NCBI RefSeq assembly: GCF_016785085.1
Contig: NZ_JAENHO010000003.1
Location: 186,001 to 250,000, forward strand
Reading direction: 5' to 3'
Source of the DNA: Paractinoplanes lichenicola
GTDB lineage: Bacteria > Actinomycetota > Actinomycetes > Mycobacteriales > Micromonosporaceae
DNA: 64,000 bases
This document shows positions 24,159-34,572 of the stretch, one piece after another. The position numbers and the translations under genes are program-made. How positions within the stretch are numbered: position 1 is the stretch's first letter; every line of letters begins with the position of its first letter. The notes beneath the pieces were generated by a model. It was not told the origin of the DNA. It ran no database searches and was given only the letters and a program-made list of their open reading frames with translations.

Positions 24159-26213
24159 GTGAAGAACCGCAACATCAGCAAGCTTGCCGTGCCCGTCGGG
24201 GTCGTCGGCATCGTCCTCATGATGGTCGTGCCGTTGCCGACCTTCCTGCTGGACATGCTGATCGCGCTCAACATCACCGCGGCCCTGCTGATCATGTTGA
24301 CCAGCATGTTCGTCCAGAAACCGCTCGACTTCTCGATCTTTCCGGCCCTGCTGCTGGTGGCCACCCTGTTCCGCCTCGCGCTCAACATCAGCGCGACCCG
24401 GCTGGTGCTGAGCGAGGGCGACGCCGGCAAGGTGATTCACGCGTTCGGCAGCTTCGTGGTCGGTGGCAACCTCGTCATCGGCCTCGTCATCTTCCTGATC
24501 CTGGTGATCGTCCAGATGGTCGTGGTCACCAAGGGCGCCGAGCGGGTGGCCGAGGTCGGCGCCCGCTTCACCCTCGACGCCATGCCCGGCAAGCAGATGG
24601 CGATCGACGCCGACCTCAACGCCGGCCTGATCGACGAGGACCAGGCCAAGAAGCGCCGGGCCGAGGTGGGCGCGGAGGCCGAGTTCTACGGCGCCATGGA
24701 CGGTGGCTCCAAGTTCGTCAAGGGCGACGCCATCGCCGCCGTCATCATCACGCTGATCAACCTGGTCGGCGGTTTCGCGATCGGCGTGGCCCAGCAGGGC
24801 ATGGCAGCCGGCGACGCGATGAACCACTACAGCCTGCTGAGCATCGGCGACGGCCTGGTCTCGCAGATTCCCGCGCTGCTGCTGTCGGTGGCCACCGGTC
24901 TGATCGTGACCCGCTCGGCCACCTCGGGCGACATGGGCTCGACGGTCACCACCCAGCTCAGCCAGAACAAGCTCGCGCTGCGCATCGCCGGCGGCGCGTC
25001 GCTCGCCCTCTGCGTCATCCCGGGCCTGCCGAAGGTTCCCTTCCTGGTCGTCGGCGCGGCCGTCCTGATCGCCGCGCAGAAGATCAAGGACCCGGTGCCC
25101 GAGGAGGAGGTGGCGGCGGCCGCGGCGGCCGGCGAGGCGGTCGACATGCCGCCCCCGGACTCGCCCGAGCAGCTCCTCGGCGAGATGCGCGTCGACCCGC
25201 TCGAGCTCGCGCTCTCACCCGACCTCGTCGATCTGGTCGACGCCAGCAGCGGGGACCTGCTCGACCGGGTCCGGGCCCTGCGCCGCAAGATGGCCATGGA
25301 GCTGGGCGTGATCATGCCGCCGGTGCGGACGCGCGACGATCTCGACCTGCCGCTCTCCTCGTACGCCATCCGGATCTCCGGCACCGACGCGGGCACCGGC
25401 GAGGCGCCGCCCGGCACGGTGCTGGCGATCGGCGACGGGCTGCAGGGCCTGCCCGGCAAGGCCGGCGTCGAGCCGGTGTTCGGCCTGCCCGGCAAGTGGG
25501 TGCCGTCCGAGCTGCACTATCAGGCCGAGCTCTCCGGGGCGACCGTGGTCGACCGGGCCAGCGTGATCATCACGCATCTGGCCGAGGTGGTCCGCAGCAA
25601 CGCGAGCCGGCTGCTCGGCCGCGAGGACGTGCGCGCGCTGACCGAGACGGTCAAGCGCACCCACCCGGTCGTGGTCGAGGAGCTGACCCCCGCGGTGCTC
25701 AGCCTCGGCCAGATCCAGAAAGTGCTCCAAGGGCTTCTCGACGAGGGCGTGCCGATCCGCGACCTGGTCCGCATCTTCGAGGCGCTCTCCCTTCGGGCAA
25801 AGGTCTCCGTCGACCAGGACAGCCTGGTCGAGGCGGCCCGTGCGGCGCTGGGTCCCGCTATCGCGGCTCAGTACACGACCGCCGGCCGTCTCACGGTGAT
25901 CACGCTCGATCCCATGCTCGAGCAGCAACTGCTCGAATCTCTGCGGCCCAGCGAGACGGGGGCCTTCATGGCGATCGACGGCATGCGTGCCGAGGCGATC
26001 GTCAGCGAGGCGGCCCGGCTCACCGAGACCGCGGAACAGCAGGGTCTGGCCCCGGTGCTGGCCTGCTCGCCACAGCTGCGACTGCCCCTGATGCGCCTCC
26101 TGCGTGCCGGCTCCCGCCGGATCCAGGTGCTGTCGTACGGCGAAATCTCTGGTTCCACAGCACAGATCGAAACGATTGGGGTGGTCAACGGTGCCTACGC
26201 GGGTGCTGCTTGA
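24159..26213 (+). CDS. flhA: Flagellar export apparatus protein FlhA
   Basis: A 684-residue export gate protein. About eight membrane helices occupy the N-terminal half, including the FHIPEP-family region (PLDFSIFPALLLVATLFRLALNISATRLVL). The cytoplasmic domain (about 330-684) binds chaperone-substrate complexes. The start is GTG 24159, with GGAAGGTGCC upstream. The 3' end overlaps the FlhF-like gene by 23 bases. Confidence 0.95.
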   Translation: MKNRNISKLAVPVGVVGIVLMMVVPLPTFLLDMLIALNITAALLIMLTSMFVQKPLDFSIFPALLLVATLFRLALNISATRLVLSEGDAGKVIHAFGSFVVGGNLVIGLVIFLILVIVQMVVVTKGAERVAEVGARFTLDAMPGKQMAIDADLNAGLIDEDQAKKRRAEVGAEAEFYGAMDGGSKFVKGDAIAAVIITLINLVGGFAIGVAQQGMAAGDAMNHYSLLSIGDGLVSQIPALLLSVATGLIVTRSATSGDMGSTVTTQLSQNKLALRIAGGASLALCVIPGLPKVPFLVVGAAVLIAAQKIKDPVPEEEVAAAAAAGEAVDMPPPDSPEQLLGEMRVDPLELALSPDLVDLVDASSGDLLDRVRALRRKMAMELGVIMPPVRTRDDLDLPLSSYAIRISGTDAGTGEAPPGTVLAIGDGLQGLPGKAGVEPVFGLPGKWVPSELHYQAELSGATVVDRASVIITHLAEVVRSNASRLLGREDVRALTETVKRTHPVVVEELTPAVLSLGQIQKVLQGLLDEGVPIRDLVRIFEALSLRAKVSVDQDSLVEAARAALGPAIAAQYTTAGRLTVITLDPMLEQQLLESLRPSETGAFMAIDGMRAEAIVSEAARLTETAEQQGLAPVLACSPQLRLPLMRLLRAGSRRIQVLSYGEISGSTAQIETIGVVNGAYAGAA

Positions 26214-27858
26214 GGGACCGGCCATCGAGCCGCTTCTGGCTCAGGTGCGCGATGAGTACGGCTCCCGTGTCCGGATCATCTCCGCCGACAAGGTCCGCAG
26301 TGGCGGTGTCGGTGGCTTCTTCGCGAAACAGCATTACGAGCTGTCGGTCGAGGTGCCGGACCCGAACGAGGACAGGAATGACATGGCTTCACGGATGAAG
26401 ACGGCCGACACCGGCCAGCACAGCCTGGAACGGCTCCTCGAGCGGGCCGAGTCGCAGGACCGGTTGGACGACCCGGGCCGGGCGGCGCCCCGTCCGTTCG
26501 GGGGCAGCGCCTCACCGCGCTCGGTGACGCCGGCGTCGTTCGGCATGACCCGGCCGGCCGAGGCCGCGTCCCGGCCCGCCGAGACCGCCCCGCGGCCCGC
26601 CGCGGCCGAGCACGGGTTCGGCGCCGACGAGGGCCGCAGCGCCGCGTTCGGGGACACCGGGGCCGCGTTCGCCGAGCTGATGGCCGGCCTCAACGGCGGT
26701 GACCAGCTCACGTCGCGGCCCAAGCCGGCGCCGCGGGAGGAGCCGGCCCCGACCGTACGGCCGTTCCGTCCGGCCGCGGCCAGCGAGTCGCCGGTCAACG
26801 TGGTGCGGCCGCCCGTCTCGGCCCCGCCCGCCCCGGCTCCGGTCATGCCGGCCGTGGTCGCACCGCAGTCGCCCGCCGCTCCGTCCTTCGTGACCGAGCC
26901 GCCCGCGCCCCCGGTGGCCGTCGCGCCGGTGTCGCCCGCGCCCGTGTCACCCGCGCCGGTCTCGCCCGCGCCCCGCCTCGCCGACCGGATCGGTGGCCTG
27001 GCCGCGAGCGAGATCGAGATCGACGAGGAGCCGCCGCCGCCCGCGCCCGAGCCGGTCGTGCAGACGGCCCCGGCCGAGACGTACGGGTTCCAGCCGGCCT
27101 CGCCGGTCTCGGCCGTCCCGGCCCCCGCGCCGGCCGCGGCCGCTCCGGCGGTCGCCGACAACGAGCCGGTCGTCCGGAACCTGATGTCGGTGGGCATGCC
27201 GGAGCACATGGCCCGCCAGATCACCGGCAGCGACACGTACGCGGGTGTGCTGAGCGTGCTGGCCGCGCGGCCCAGCGCCCCAGCCATCCCGGACGGGCCG
27301 GGTGAGATCCTGGTGCTCGCGGGCGACATCAACCTGGGGGTCACCATCGGCCGCCAACTGCTCGAGCAGATCGGCGTGCCGGAGAACCACCTCCTGCTGG
27401 CCGCGCAGTCGACGGCCGGCACCGGGCTGCACTCGTCCCGGCTGATCTCGACGCCGGAGGCGGCCGAGAGCCGCACCGAGAAGCTGCACAGCGCCGAGGA
27501 ACCCTGGGTCGTCGTGCTCGAGGCGCCGGTCGGCGGCACCGACCCGATCTGGGTCAACGAGATGTGCGACGCGATCGGGGCCACCGCGGTCTGGGCGGTT
27601 GTCGACGCCACCCGCAAGACCGCCGACAGCGGCCGTCACCTGCGGGCCCTCGGCGAGGTCGAGTCGCTGGTGGTGCACGGCGTCGAGCTGACCGGCGACC
27701 CGGCCTCGGTGCTCGGCCTGGACCTGCCGATCTTCTCGCTGGACGGCAAGCCGGCCACCCCGCACGCCTGGGCCGCCATGCTCTGCGCGCGGATCGCGTC
27801 CGACGTCATGCCGGTCGCCGCGGCCCCGCGGCGCGTCACCCGATCGGCGCGGCAGTGA
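26191..27858 (+). CDS. FlhF-like protein with degenerate GTPase domain
   Basis: A 555-residue protein in the usual flhF position after flhA. The N-terminus (residues 1-50: LLAQVRDEYGSRVRIISADKV, then GGVGGFFAKQHYELSVEV) resembles the FlhF B domain. A Pro/Ala-rich middle (about 80-320) includes tandem VSPAP repeats. Residues 371-540 have the length and strand order of an SRP-type GTPase, but the P-loop place reads LVLAGDINLGVTIGRQLL with no GKT/GKS, so nucleotide binding is probably lost. GTG 26191 is chosen; it overlaps flhA. It may place flagella or act as an export-linked scaffold. Confidence 0.65.
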   Translation: MPTRVLLEGPAIEPLLAQVRDEYGSRVRIISADKVRSGGVGGFFAKQHYELSVEVPDPNEDRNDMASRMKTADTGQHSLERLLERAESQDRLDDPGRAAPRPFGGSASPRSVTPASFGMTRPAEAASRPAETAPRPAAAEHGFGADEGRSAAFGDTGAAFAELMAGLNGGDQLTSRPKPAPREEPAPTVRPFRPAAASESPVNVVRPPVSAPPAPAPVMPAVVAPQSPAAPSFVTEPPAPPVAVAPVSPAPVSPAPVSPAPRLADRIGGLAASEIEIDEEPPPPAPEPVVQTAPAETYGFQPASPVSAVPAPAPAAAAPAVADNEPVVRNLMSVGMPEHMARQITGSDTYAGVLSVLAARPSAPAIPDGPGEILVLAGDINLGVTIGRQLLEQIGVPENHLLLAAQSTAGTGLHSSRLISTPEAAESRTEKLHSAEEPWVVVLEAPVGGTDPIWVNEMCDAIGATAVWAVVDATRKTADSGRHLRALGEVESLVVHGVELTGDPASVLGLDLPIFSLDGKPATPHAWAAMLCARIASDVMPVAAAPRRVTRSARQ

Positions 27859-28094
27859 TTCGTCCATCGGTCCTGCTGTTCGCGCTCCTGATGAGCGCGC
27901 CGGCGCTGTATCGCTACGTGCTCGACGAGGTCGACATCACCGAGGTACTGATCCGGTTCGTGATCGCCGTGCCGATCGCCGCCCTGCTGCTCGCGGGGTT
28001 GCGGTTCGTCACCGCGGGTTACGGCCGGCCGGAGGGGAAGCCGGAAGGCACCCCGGTGACACCGACCCCGCTCGACGCGGAGAAGCCGGCCTGA
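27855..28094 (+). CDS. Small two-helix membrane protein, unknown
   Basis: A 79-residue protein with two predicted membrane helices (about 4-22 and 29-52) and a short Pro/Gly-rich tail. The GTG overlaps the stop of the FlhF-like gene (GTGA), so it is the last gene of the flhA operon. Size and topology recall FliQ, but the FliQ signature between the helices (QxxTQIxExTLxFVPK) is absent. The function is unknown. Confidence 0.65.
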   Translation: MIRPSVLLFALLMSAPALYRYVLDEVDITEVLIRFVIAVPIAALLLAGLRFVTAGYGRPEGKPEGTPVTPTPLDAEKPA

Positions 28095-30012: not shown

Positions 30013-31023
30013 TCAGCCGCCGAGCGCGGCGAGGGCCTTCTGGACCTTCGGGACGTACGCCTGGGTCTCCGAGAACGGCGGGATGCCGCCGTACCGGTGC
30101 ACCGCGCCGCCGCCCGCGTTGTAGGCGGCCAGGGCCAGCGGCAGCGACTTGAACTCGCGCAGGTTGCGGGACAGCAGCTTGGCGCCGCCGTTGATGGCCT
30201 GCGCCGGGTCGAACGAGTCCTTGACGCCGAGCCCCCGCGCGGTCGACGGCATCAGCTGCATCAGGCCCTGGGCGCCGGCCTTGCTGACGGCCTTGGGGTC
30301 GTACCCGGACTCGACCTTGGCCACCGCCGCGAGCAGCTTGGGTGAGACGCCGTACCGGTTGCCGGCCTGCACGAACAGGTCGGCGTAGGGCACCCCGGCC
30401 AGCGAGCCGGTGCCCTGCAGGCTGGCCGGGCGGACCGCGGAGACGGCGTTCTGCGGGGCGACCGGGAGGTCCGAGACGACGCGGCGGATGTGCGTCGGCT
30501 TCTCGTACACGCTCTGGATCTTGACGTGATCGCCGGGCTTCGGGGCCGCGATCATCTTGTTGTCGCCGAGATAGATGGCGACGTGGTCGACGGGGGAGTC
30601 GAAGGCGAGGATGTCGCCCGGCTTGGCCTGGGCCAGGTTGGCCACCGGCTCGCCCGCCTTGGCCTGCTGGTGCGACAGGCGGGGCAGCTTGATGCCGAGG
30701 TCGCTGTAGGCCCGCTGGACCAGCGCCGAGCAGTCCAGGCCCTTGTCCGGGTCGGTGCTGCCGAAGACGTACGGGGTGCCGAGGTATTTCTTGGCCGCGT
30801 CGACGACGTTCTGACCGGTGGCCTGACTGTTCAGCCGCATGCCGGCCCCGGCCTGACCGGTGGCGCTGGCCAGCGCGGAGGCGAACGTGCTGGTGCCGCC
30901 GGGGCCGGTCGTGCTCACGGTGCCGGTCGTGCCGGTGGCGCCCGGGGCCGGGTTGACCGGGGTGAGCCCGAGCTGGCCCTGCAGCTCCTGGATGCGGTTG
31001 AGCACCCCGGTGACACCGATCAT
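30013..31023 (-). CDS. NlpC/P60 - lytic transglycosylase fusion (FlgJ-like role)
   Basis: A 336-residue bifunctional wall hydrolase with no obvious signal peptide. The NlpC/P60 domain (about 70-180) has C98 in LDCSALVQ and H147 in VDHVAIYLG. The SLT domain (about 210-336) has E238 in AAVAKVESGYDP, then GAQGLMQLMPSTA and LALAAYNAGGGAV. It sits between fliJ and fliK (overlapping fliJ), where it probably opens peptidoglycan for the rod as FlgJ does. The N-terminal 60 residues resemble an export or rod-capping segment by position only. Confidence 0.88.
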   Translation of the reverse strand: MIGVTGVLNRIQELQGQLGLTPVNPAPGATGTTGTVSTTGPGGTSTFASALASATGQAGAGMRLNSQATGQNVVDAAKKYLGTPYVFGSTDPDKGLDCSALVQRAYSDLGIKLPRLSHQQAKAGEPVANLAQAKPGDILAFDSPVDHVAIYLGDNKMIAAPKPGDHVKIQSVYEKPTHIRRVVSDLPVAPQNAVSAVRPASLQGTGSLAGVPYADLFVQAGNRYGVSPKLLAAVAKVESGYDPKAVSKAGAQGLMQLMPSTARGLGVKDSFDPAQAINGGAKLLSRNLREFKSLPLALAAYNAGGGAVHRYGGIPPFSETQAYVPKVQKALAALGG

Positions 31024-32882: not shown

Positions 32883-33563
32883 TTACAGCAGCCGCAACGC
32901 TTCCTTGGCCCGGTCGACGGCGGCGGCGATGGTGGCGTCCACCGTCGCCATGCCGGTCTCCGCGACCGCGTCGCCGGGCCGCAGCGCGCCGTCCGGCCGC
33001 AGCCGCACCCGGCGCCCCTCGTATTCGAAATCCGTCTCGCCGGCGTCGCCGACCAGCGTGTGATAGTCGTCCGGGTGCAGGCTGACCACCAGCGAGCCCG
33101 CGTCGGGCGTGGCCGCCATGGCCCGGCGCAGCGCCGCCACCGTGCGGCCCTGCGGGTCCTCCAGGCTGCGCCCGACGATCGCCTCGGCCAGCTCGAAGGC
33201 GTGCGCCAGCAGCACCTCCTGCAGCTCGGCGAAGGTCGGCATGAGCTGATTCTCGTGCTCGGTGACAGCCCGGCCGAGCGCGTTGACCGCCTGGGCCAGC
33301 GCGGTTGCCCGGCGCTGGTCGTGAGCCTGCTCGGCCGCCGCCGCGCGGGCCTGGGCGTTCTGCGCGGCGGCCGCGGCCTCGCGCTGGCCCTGGGCCCAGC
33401 CCTCGGCGTATCCGGTCGTGCGGGCCTGCTGCTTGACCCGGTCGAGCGAATCGCCGTCGGTCGGCAGCCCGGTGCGCAGGTCGACCGCGAACCGGGCGGT
33501 GGAGGCCGACTCGGCCATCGAGCCGCGCAGCACGGGGCTGCTGCTCTCAGGCGATGAGCTCAT
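32883..33563 (-). CDS. fliH: Flagellar assembly protein FliH
   Basis: A 226-residue FliI regulator with an Ala/Gln-rich coiled coil (about 45-105) and a C-terminal domain (LAHAFELAEAIVGRSLED, then VSLHPDDYHTL) like FliH/SctL. ATG 33563 is chosen; it overlaps the end of fliG by 17 bases. A later ATG at 33518 would give 211 residues. Confidence 0.85.
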   Translation of the reverse strand: MSSSPESSSPVLRGSMAESASTARFAVDLRTGLPTDGDSLDRVKQQARTTGYAEGWAQGQREAAAAAQNAQARAAAAEQAHDQRRATALAQAVNALGRAVTEHENQLMPTFAELQEVLLAHAFELAEAIVGRSLEDPQGRTVAALRRAMAATPDAGSLVVSLHPDDYHTLVGDAGETDFEYEGRRVRLRPDGALRPGDAVAETGMATVDATIAAAVDRAKEALRLL

Positions 33564-34572
33564 CGGCCTCGCCACCGCGCTGGACCTCGATCTGCCCGGA
33601 GTCCTCGAGCGAGCGGATCACCGAGACGATCTTGGCCTGGGCCTCCTCGACCATCTTGACCTTGACCGGGCCGAGCAGGTCGATCTCCTCGAGCAGGTTC
33701 TCGCGACCGCGCTCGGAGAGGTTCTTGGTGACCTTGTCGCGCACGGTGTCGGGCACACCCTTGAGGGCGGTGGCCAGGTCGGCCGGCTCCACCTGGCGCA
33801 GCACCAGCTGGATGGCGCGGTCCTCGAGGTTGATGATGTCCTCGAACATGAACATCCGGCGCCGGATCTCCTCGGCCAGCTCGGGGCTGCGGGCGTCCAG
33901 GGCCTCCAGGATGAGCCGCTCGGTGGTGCGGTCGGCGCGGTTGATGATGTCGACCAGCGGCTGCAGACCGCCGACCGTGGAGAGCTCGTCCGGCTGCAGC
34001 ACCGACGAGAGCTTGCGCTGCAGGGCCTGCTCGACCTGGCGGATGATCTCGGGGGAGGTCCGGTCCATCACCGCGATCCGGTGCGCGACCTCGGTCTGCA
34101 CCTCGATCGGGAGGCCGGCCAGGATCGACGAGGCGAGCGCCGAGGGGATGTGCGCCAGCACCAGCGCGATCGTCTGCGGGTGCTCGTACTGCACGTACGA
34201 GAGCAGCTGCCGGGGGTCGGCGTGGCTCAGGAAATTGAAGGGGATGTCGTTCATCGAGGCTTCGAGGCGGTCGAGTATCAACGCCGCGCGATCCTTGCCC
34301 AGCGAGGCCTCGAGCAGCTCGCGGGCGTAGTCCATGCCGCCGGAGCCGGCGTACCGGGTCGTGGCCATGGCGTAGAACTCGTCCAGCACGTCGTCGACCT
34401 GGGTCGGCTCCAGCTTGCCGAGCCGGGCGATCTCGGCCGAGATCATCTCGACCTCTTTCTCCGACATCTGGGACAGGACGTGCGCGGACTGCTCCTTGCC
34501 GAATTGGACGAGCATGATGGCGGCCTTGCGCACGCCTGTCATCGACATGGTGGTGAGCGCCGGTGTGGTCAA
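33547..34572 (-). CDS. fliG: Flagellar motor switch protein FliG
   Basis: A 341-residue C-ring protein. The N-terminal domain binds FliF (MTGVRKAAIMLVQFGKEQSAHVL); the EHPQTIALVLAHI motif is in the middle domain; and the C-terminal domain has the charged torque helix (about residues 280-300, with D/R/K residues). The start is TTG 34572, with GAGGAG 6 bases upstream, which is uncommon. It overlaps fliH. Confidence 0.95.
   Translation of the reverse strand: MTTPALTTMSMTGVRKAAIMLVQFGKEQSAHVLSQMSEKEVEMISAEIARLGKLEPTQVDDVLDEFYAMATTRYAGSGGMDYARELLEASLGKDRAALILDRLEASMNDIPFNFLSHADPRQLLSYVQYEHPQTIALVLAHIPSALASSILAGLPIEVQTEVAHRIAVMDRTSPEIIRQVEQALQRKLSSVLQPDELSTVGGLQPLVDIINRADRTTERLILEALDARSPELAEEIRRRMFMFEDIINLEDRAIQLVLRQVEPADLATALKGVPDTVRDKVTKNLSERGRENLLEEIDLLGPVKVKMVEEAQAKIVSVIRSLEDSGQIEVQRGGEADELIA

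Follow-up and report, generated by a model that had tools for sequence, protein, structure and literature searches.

The 64,000-nucleotide stretch of Paractinoplanes lichenicola DNA analysed here (hereafter the window) carries, directly after flhA in its flagellar cluster, a gene on the forward strand (positions 26191 to 27858, GTG start, 555 amino acids) for a variant of FlhF in which the FliG-interacting domain (FID) and the predicted fold of the signal recognition particle (SRP) GTPases are retained and the GTPase motifs are lost. FlhF itself is a GTPase that assists in positioning flagella. We consider it probable that this pseudo-GTPase FlhF, the flagellar-cluster orthologue of FlhF, acts as a nucleotide-independent tether for FliG. 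It is taken as an orthologue of FlhF because of its position, its FID and its predicted fold, and its motifs are the reason why it is not taken as an FlhF GTPase. The finding is broader than an earlier, sequence-only reading of the window had held, as the variant is clade-wide.

The reading frame starts within the upstream flhA gene (24159 to 26213, forward strand; PF00771, E 4e-249), overlapping its 3' end by 23 nucleotides; the last codon ends at 27855 and the stop at 27858. In 41 of the 46 related loci tested, the gene likewise overlaps by 23 nucleotides an open frame upstream of it that is 300 codons or longer; the overlap is 14 nucleotides in four others and 88 in the broken locus L046. 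All parts of the gene are on the forward strand. Residues 1–60 (26191 to 26370) form the FID with its conserved VRSGGxGGFFAKQHYE, residues 61–324 (26371 to 27162) a Pro/Ala-rich linker that varies in length and sequence and, from its composition, is probably disordered, and residues 325–545 (27163 to 27825) the degenerate NG domain (hereafter also the C-domain), in which a short N part is followed by the alpha/beta G part. Identity to 16 chosen relatives was 41–73% over residues 61–320 of the linker. Between the window protein and these relatives, the ratio of nonsynonymous to synonymous change (pN/pS) was 0.00–0.15 in the FID, 0.45–0.90 in the linker and 0.16–0.64 in the C-domain, with the upper C-domain values coming from the more distant pairs; purifying selection acts on both ends of the protein, the FID and the C-domain. 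The sequence-only reading had described a gene without a P-loop in the flhF position, with an FlhF-like N-terminus and a region (residues 371–540) of the length of an SRP-GTPase domain; each of these points stands, that region lying inside the domain at 325–545.

The N-terminal assignment was examined by profile comparison. The NCBIfam model for FlhF, TIGR03499, matches the window protein over residues 9–90 alone (E 2.7e-6), with 27.6 bits against a curated cut-off of 174.15, and a Pfam search with the protein up to E 10 gave no match. At E ≤ 0.01, the same model matches 40 out of 43 sequences of the FID, including that of the window; nine of the 43 come from FlhF with an intact GK[ST] P-loop (GK-intact). 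Alignment by hhalign of the window protein and 30 relatives with the N-termini of eight GK-intact FlhF gave Prob 97.7 and E 2.6e-12. In a model of modest confidence (predicted local distance difference test score, pLDDT, 75; predicted template modelling score, pTM, 0.51), AlphaFold2 places a strand, a helix and two further strands in the FID; three strands and one helix are reported for the crystallised FliG-interacting domain of Shewanella putrefaciens FlhF (PMC11236974). That crystal structure, 9en1, was the top match of the model in VIA-align (Z 7.1, 1.9 Å, 49 residues), with dodecins ranking next from Z 6.3 downward, a gap of less than one unit. The identity of residues 1–60 as the FID of FlhF is settled by the sequence evidence and would not be by structure alone, and by analogy the domain is predicted to bind FliG. 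Another structure that the FID model (residues 1–62) resembles is 3gku (Z 5.0), probably an RNA-binding protein, which we take to be Jag-like. In two contigs of marine actinobacterial metagenome-assembled genomes (L052 and L054), a very long region resembling a coiled coil comes after the FID and continues past the contig end.

For the C-domain, AlphaFold2 with 48 sequences gave a best model with a pLDDT of 79.7 and a pTM of 0.76, the remaining four of five models reaching a pLDDT of 61.5–69.0. Comparison of the predicted structure with FlhF and Ffh had been proposed in the sequence-only reading, and it returned an SRP-GTPase fold: the best 50 Foldseek matches listed were all Ffh/SRP54, FtsY or FlhF chains (E 1.7e-7 to 7.0e-6), and the best VIA-align match was FlhF of S. 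putrefaciens (8r9r; Z 16.1, 3.0 Å, 209 residues, 13% identity), with other SRP GTPases behind it at Z 13.2–14.9 among the best 50 rows. Residues 325–545 are accordingly given here as a predicted NG domain. The profile-to-profile comparison proposed alongside, conducted on residues 325–545, agreed with the prediction; 32 C-domains could be aligned collinearly, over 162 columns, with the G-domains of 14 intact FlhF from actinobacteria (E 1.2e-5, Prob 81), and the control alignment with FlhG, another P-loop protein, gave E 0.22 over 20 columns. Among the alignments used, A3 holds 18 of the 21 C-domains from other genomes of the class, omitting L143, L148 and L149, which are among the most divergent, and A4 omits L170 and L171, which are close to L169. 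An unrelated Rossmann domain was rejected on the hhalign result with intact FlhF and the Foldseek and VIA-align matches, and an FlhG-like origin on the E of 0.22 against FlhG. Matches of Pfam TsiV to four of the 32 C-domain members (best E 6.7e-5), with none to the window sequence, were taken as chance. Four NCBIfam families each match one C-domain member (E 0.0017–0.0091).

In the profile alignment with intact FlhF, the C-domain is homologous to the G-domain of that protein and has lost its motifs. The P-loop (G1) GPTGSGKT of FlhF is replaced by GDINLGVT (residues 378–385, 27322 to 27345), DTAG at the former G3 site by LEAP (residues 443–446, 27517 to 27528) and TKLDE at the former G4 site by HGVEL (residues 496–500, 27676 to 27690). 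In the C-domain model, helix 56–69 starts one residue past strand 49–54. The pattern G-x4-GK[ST] was found in none of 56 family proteins (the window's, those of 54 related loci and L067); seven of these stop short of the C-domain, making the fair count 0 of 49. Because the motif is missing from all 49 members that reach the domain, its absence is a family trait and not a sequencing slip, and sequencing error or frameshift was rejected. A search of the genome with PF00448 (SRP54) found two places only, both on contig C17, the window lying on C29, and the idea that the genome encodes another, true FlhF was rejected on this result. The protein would, on this evidence, work without nucleotide binding.

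In order to define how widely the variant occurs, profiles were searched against 296 genomes of the same class. The C-domain (profile A1) was found in 22 genomes and FlhA in 36, and all 22 are among the 36; none of the 260 genomes lacking FlhA has the C-domain. The gene after flhA was read in the 35 FlhA-bearing genomes besides the window's. FID and C-domain stand in one frame in 20 of these and are split over two contigs in G041, and neither GK[ST] nor a Walker A motif occurs in any of these 21 C-domain-bearing frames; in G040, the FID is in a frame that runs off the contig. The FID profile (A11) has a match beside flhA in 25 of the 36 FlhA-bearing genomes (about 18 of the 25 had themselves supplied sequences to the profile) and none in the controls lacking FlhA, 24 from the class and 12 from the phylum. 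One further weak match, in G176, is not beside flhA (E 9e-4). A flagellar role is supported because the C-domain is found in 22 of 36 genomes with FlhA against 0 of 260 without it, and the FID in 25 of 36 against 0 of 36 controls. In L123 and L124 (family f21), the FID gene after flhA has no recognisable NG domain, a further step of reduction. The FlhA-bearing loci of family f35 without an FID by profile are L127, L129, L132, L136, L137, L139, L142, L145 and L146, and the f35 genomes without it offer a natural comparison for the role of the protein.

Outside the class, both forms of the gene are present. In a sample of 396 genomes of the phylum, only four FlhA-bearing genomes belong to the class. 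FlhA was found in 63 genomes and the C-domain in six, all with FlhA. TIGR03499 scored above its cut-off in 15, all outside the class and all with a GKTT P-loop. The region downstream of flhA was then read in 45 further FlhA-bearing genomes from outside the class. A frame matching the FID or FlhF and carrying G-x4-GK[ST] was found in 16, five of which fall short of the intact G-domain profile at 1e-3, and four (families f76 and f106) have the FID with a C-domain lacking the P-loop. Another 16 have the FID but show no P-loop over the region that was read; three of these are cut at a contig edge, one is frame-broken and 12 were aligned as A10. The FID is cut short in two, and five genomes of family f57 have no FID, by the FID profile too. 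At L219 (genome G387, family f83), flhA is followed by a complete 313-residue FID frame that has no GK[ST] and a C-terminal part unlike that of other members, and in the FlhA trees it groups with the non-GK rows; in G626 there is no room downstream of flhA. As judged from these matches, the FID with the P-loop-less C-domain stands immediately behind flhA across many families that form a large clade within the Actinobacteria.

The number of losses was counted on three FlhA trees, all of them quick and the first made without a mixture model. In the first (82 rows), scoring rows with an FID or FlhF as GK-intact or not required one change. All 55 rows lacking an intact FlhF are set apart by a single branch of length 0.40 with a Shimodaira–Hasegawa-like approximate likelihood ratio (SH-aLRT) support of 100. 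One change was also required in a mixture-model tree made without the long rows L220, L204, L210 and L234 and without the four rows of unseen state named below, and over 64 counted rows in a tree with L219 added; GK and non-GK rows were parted by a branch with SH-aLRT 100 in these later trees as well. The P-loop state was unseen in four rows: L216 and L218 (two of the 15 noPloop2 rows) and L150, which all three reach a contig edge before the C-domain, and L222, which has a frame change. Recounts without them still gave one change. If rows without the gene are scored as P-loop-less, the first tree needs two changes, and in it the clade is linked to the closest GK rows by a node supported at only 83. 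This tree omits L194, L196, L198, L207, L211, L219, L226 and L227, which were cut or of unclear state at the time, and G041, with its two contigs; of the 12 canonical FlhA pieces attempted it includes nine (L158, L164 and L168 were missed), and L169–L171 were left out. These counts suggest that the P-loop was lost once, long ago, in a large actinobacterial branch. Homologues with an intact P-loop, which the sequence-only reading had named as evidence against itself, were not found among the family members read (0 of the 49 that reach the domain), and the intact FlhF of the phylum lie across one branch of the FlhA trees. The special relevance to zoospores that it had seen was not upheld, the loss being clade-wide and old.

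The absence of FlhG, also claimed in that reading, was borne out. A profile of four FlhG sequences gave strong matches (393–573 bits) in only five of 34 genomes, all canonical and with the match beside FlhF; two of the five are outside the profile. In the other 29, nine with divergent GK-intact FlhF and 20 without a P-loop, no score exceeded 59.5 bits, which is about what other MinD/ParA proteins reach. No FlhG with a DQAxxLR helix was found in the window's own genome, where the best match scored 48.8 bits against 393–573 for the strong ones, a very divergent FlhG being possible. Since no strong FlhG was found in any of the nine genomes with divergent GK-intact FlhF, FlhG seems to have been lost before the P-loop, and its loss is not tied to that of the P-loop.

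We infer a constitutive tether because of the roles that FlhF domains have in two other bacteria. FlhF of S. putrefaciens is reported to carry its FliG-binding domain in the first 44 residues and to tether FliG–FliF at the pole, the FID binding FliG and the NG domain HubP (PMC11236974). In Pseudomonas aeruginosa, the G-domain is reported to direct FlhF to the pole and assembly to require the B-domain; the release of FlhF from FliG is proposed to come about through GTP hydrolysis (PMC12713375). In the window protein, the FID would bind FliG and the dead NG domain would bind a fixed cell site or a membrane partner, and the two together would hold early FliF–FliG complexes at the sites where flagella are built. 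Without a GTPase, and with FlhG not found in the genome, release from FliG would have to come from something else, for example competition by FliM/FliN. The GTPase activity of P. aeruginosa FlhF is reportedly dispensable for flagellar localisation and not for motility, as a paper title has it.

Several observations weigh against a tether descended from FlhF. Plain Foldseek placed the 9en1 crystal at rank five for the FID, with a best E of 0.13. No SRP family was found for the C-domain in Pfam and NCBIfam, and the best match of its profile among PDB sequences was an unrelated phage tail needle (E 0.049), with SRP54 making up six of the 12 rows (E 0.13–0.41). Against the two most divergent intact FlhF alone, the hhalign result fell to E 8e-4 and covered the C-terminal half only. 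In the A10 sister group (12 proteins), the C-domain matches the window type weakly (E 0.013, 63 columns) and intact FlhF at E 0.29, at which G-domain homology is not demonstrable. Within the class, the FID gene of G030 and G053 ends without a recognisable C-domain, and 11 of the 36 FlhA-bearing genomes (nine of family f35, G066 and G156) have no FID by profile; because such gene-less and FID-only genomes bear FlhA, possession of flagellar genes does not require the protein. In addition, the fold without a Walker A could still bind nucleotide in another way, and we know of no actinobacterial binding partner of an NG domain, no search for HubP having been made.

Among the alternatives, the one deserving most weight, which we nevertheless think unlikely, is an assembly factor or checkpoint acting on FliG or the export gate with no part in flagellar placement. 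The overlap of the gene with flhA and the standing of the FID as the best conserved part both fit it, as does the report that FlhF of S. putrefaciens blocks contact between FliG and FliM/N (PMC11236974); the NG domain, which serves in pole targeting elsewhere, is however under selection, save in the two FID-only genomes. Clearly less probable is an NG domain that keeps its switch by binding nucleotide or another small ligand non-canonically. The beta1 strand, its last Gly included, and WAVVDATRKTAD, which stands where FlhF has LVLSxTTKxxD, are strongly conserved and so suggest that a surface close to the former active site has been kept, but G1, G3 and G4 are all lost, the helix runs nearly straight on after beta1 in the model and leaves little space for a phosphate-binding loop, and an FlhG-type activator was not found in the genome by the FlhG profile. 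We give very little credit to the idea that the C-domain does not derive from an SRP GTPase, the FID having been fused to another alpha/beta domain that happens to fold similarly. Its likeness to intact FlhF is visible profile-to-profile only, and the family databases are silent on an SRP origin, yet every one of the best 50 Foldseek matches listed is an SRP-type GTPase, the highest Z in VIA-align belongs to FlhF itself, the G-domain alignment is collinear, and the gene holds the same position as intact FlhF in related genomes. Least credible of all is a functionless remnant fading towards loss, for although the C-domain or the whole gene has gone from some FlhA-bearing lineages, the low pN/pS of the FID and C-domain against that of the linker and the persistence of the gene over many families speak against it.

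For the pseudo-GTPase tether, the published record is of interest in two respects. The SRP GTPase family is reported to comprise Ffh, FtsY and FlhF, three proteins that each work as a nucleotide switch (PMC12826062), and a literature search that covered few subscription papers returned no report of a P-loop-less FlhF among the matches listed. A 2023 survey reports that the later actinobacterial classes lacking FlgFG are also without FlhF, which was sought by BLASTP/PSI-BLAST with queries from Salmonella Typhimurium or Bacillus subtilis (PMC10746217). The classes scored there as lacking FlhF may be the P-loop-less clade; if so, the published gene-content table would need correction. A bolder proposal, which we find nearly as easy to believe as to doubt, is that an ancestor of the later Actinobacteria, with FlhG gone, turned FlhF from a switch timed by GTP into a permanent tether independent of nucleotide that has since guided flagella across many families, and that the reported absence of FlhF is wrong. 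Placement would then proceed without the FlhF/FlhG nucleotide cycle, perhaps with a neighbouring small membrane protein as anchor. A clade-wide FlhF with the fold and the FliG hook and without nucleotide motifs would be a natural case of separation of function, raising the questions of why a GTP cycle is required and whether flagellar position can be set by tethering only. The organisms concerned include zoospore formers such as Actinoplanes missouriensis, reported to be handled genetically (PMC10746217).

Two other genes of the window bear on these proposals. An open reading frame of 79 amino acids with two hydrophobic stretches (27855 to 28094, forward strand) overlaps the 3' end of the flhF-like gene, and its family matches reach just E 0.71 in Pfam and 0.16 in NCBIfam. 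A hydrophobicity scan of seven loci found similar-looking small frames in six and none in L125: the frame adjoins the flhF-like gene in L232, adjoins flhA in L135, where an flhF-like gene is missing, and lies about 0.6–0.7 kb further on in L130, L131, L212 and L236. In L236, it stands after a GK-intact FlhF. The product is a candidate membrane partner of the NG domain because similar-looking frames are near the gene in several families and because in Vibrio the FlhF partner FipA is reported to be encoded downstream of the flagellar operon (PMC11620751). The proposed partner of the FID, fliG, is at 33547 to 34572 on the reverse strand (PF14842, PF14841 and PF01706 all over cut-off). Also in the flagellar cluster, a gene at 30016 to 31023 on the reverse strand encodes, by its domain matches, a protein with NlpC/P60 and SLT transglycosylase domains; as a guess, it could stand in for a FlgJ-type wall enzyme.

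In comparison with known systems, the window protein is like FlhF (TIGR03499; PDB 2px0, 2px3 and 8r9r; FID 9en1) in its layout of FID, linker and NG domain, its place after flhA and its predicted folds, and unlike it in lacking G1, G3 and G4, in its shortened N part and Pro/Ala-rich linker, in a score far under the curated FlhF cut-off and in a genome where no FlhG was found. Other actinobacteria have a divergent but GK-intact FlhF (G385 and G504; L172 and L173). With the window protein these share a similar GG-x-x-GFF N-terminal signature (TRSGGVAGFFAR in L173), the place after flhA and the lack of a strong FlhG match, whereas they keep GxSGVGKT, DT(A/P)G and TKxDE. The NG domains of Ffh and FtsY resemble the C-domain in overall fold (Z about 13–15), but these proteins have no FID, are GTPases, and are encoded by separate genes in this genome.

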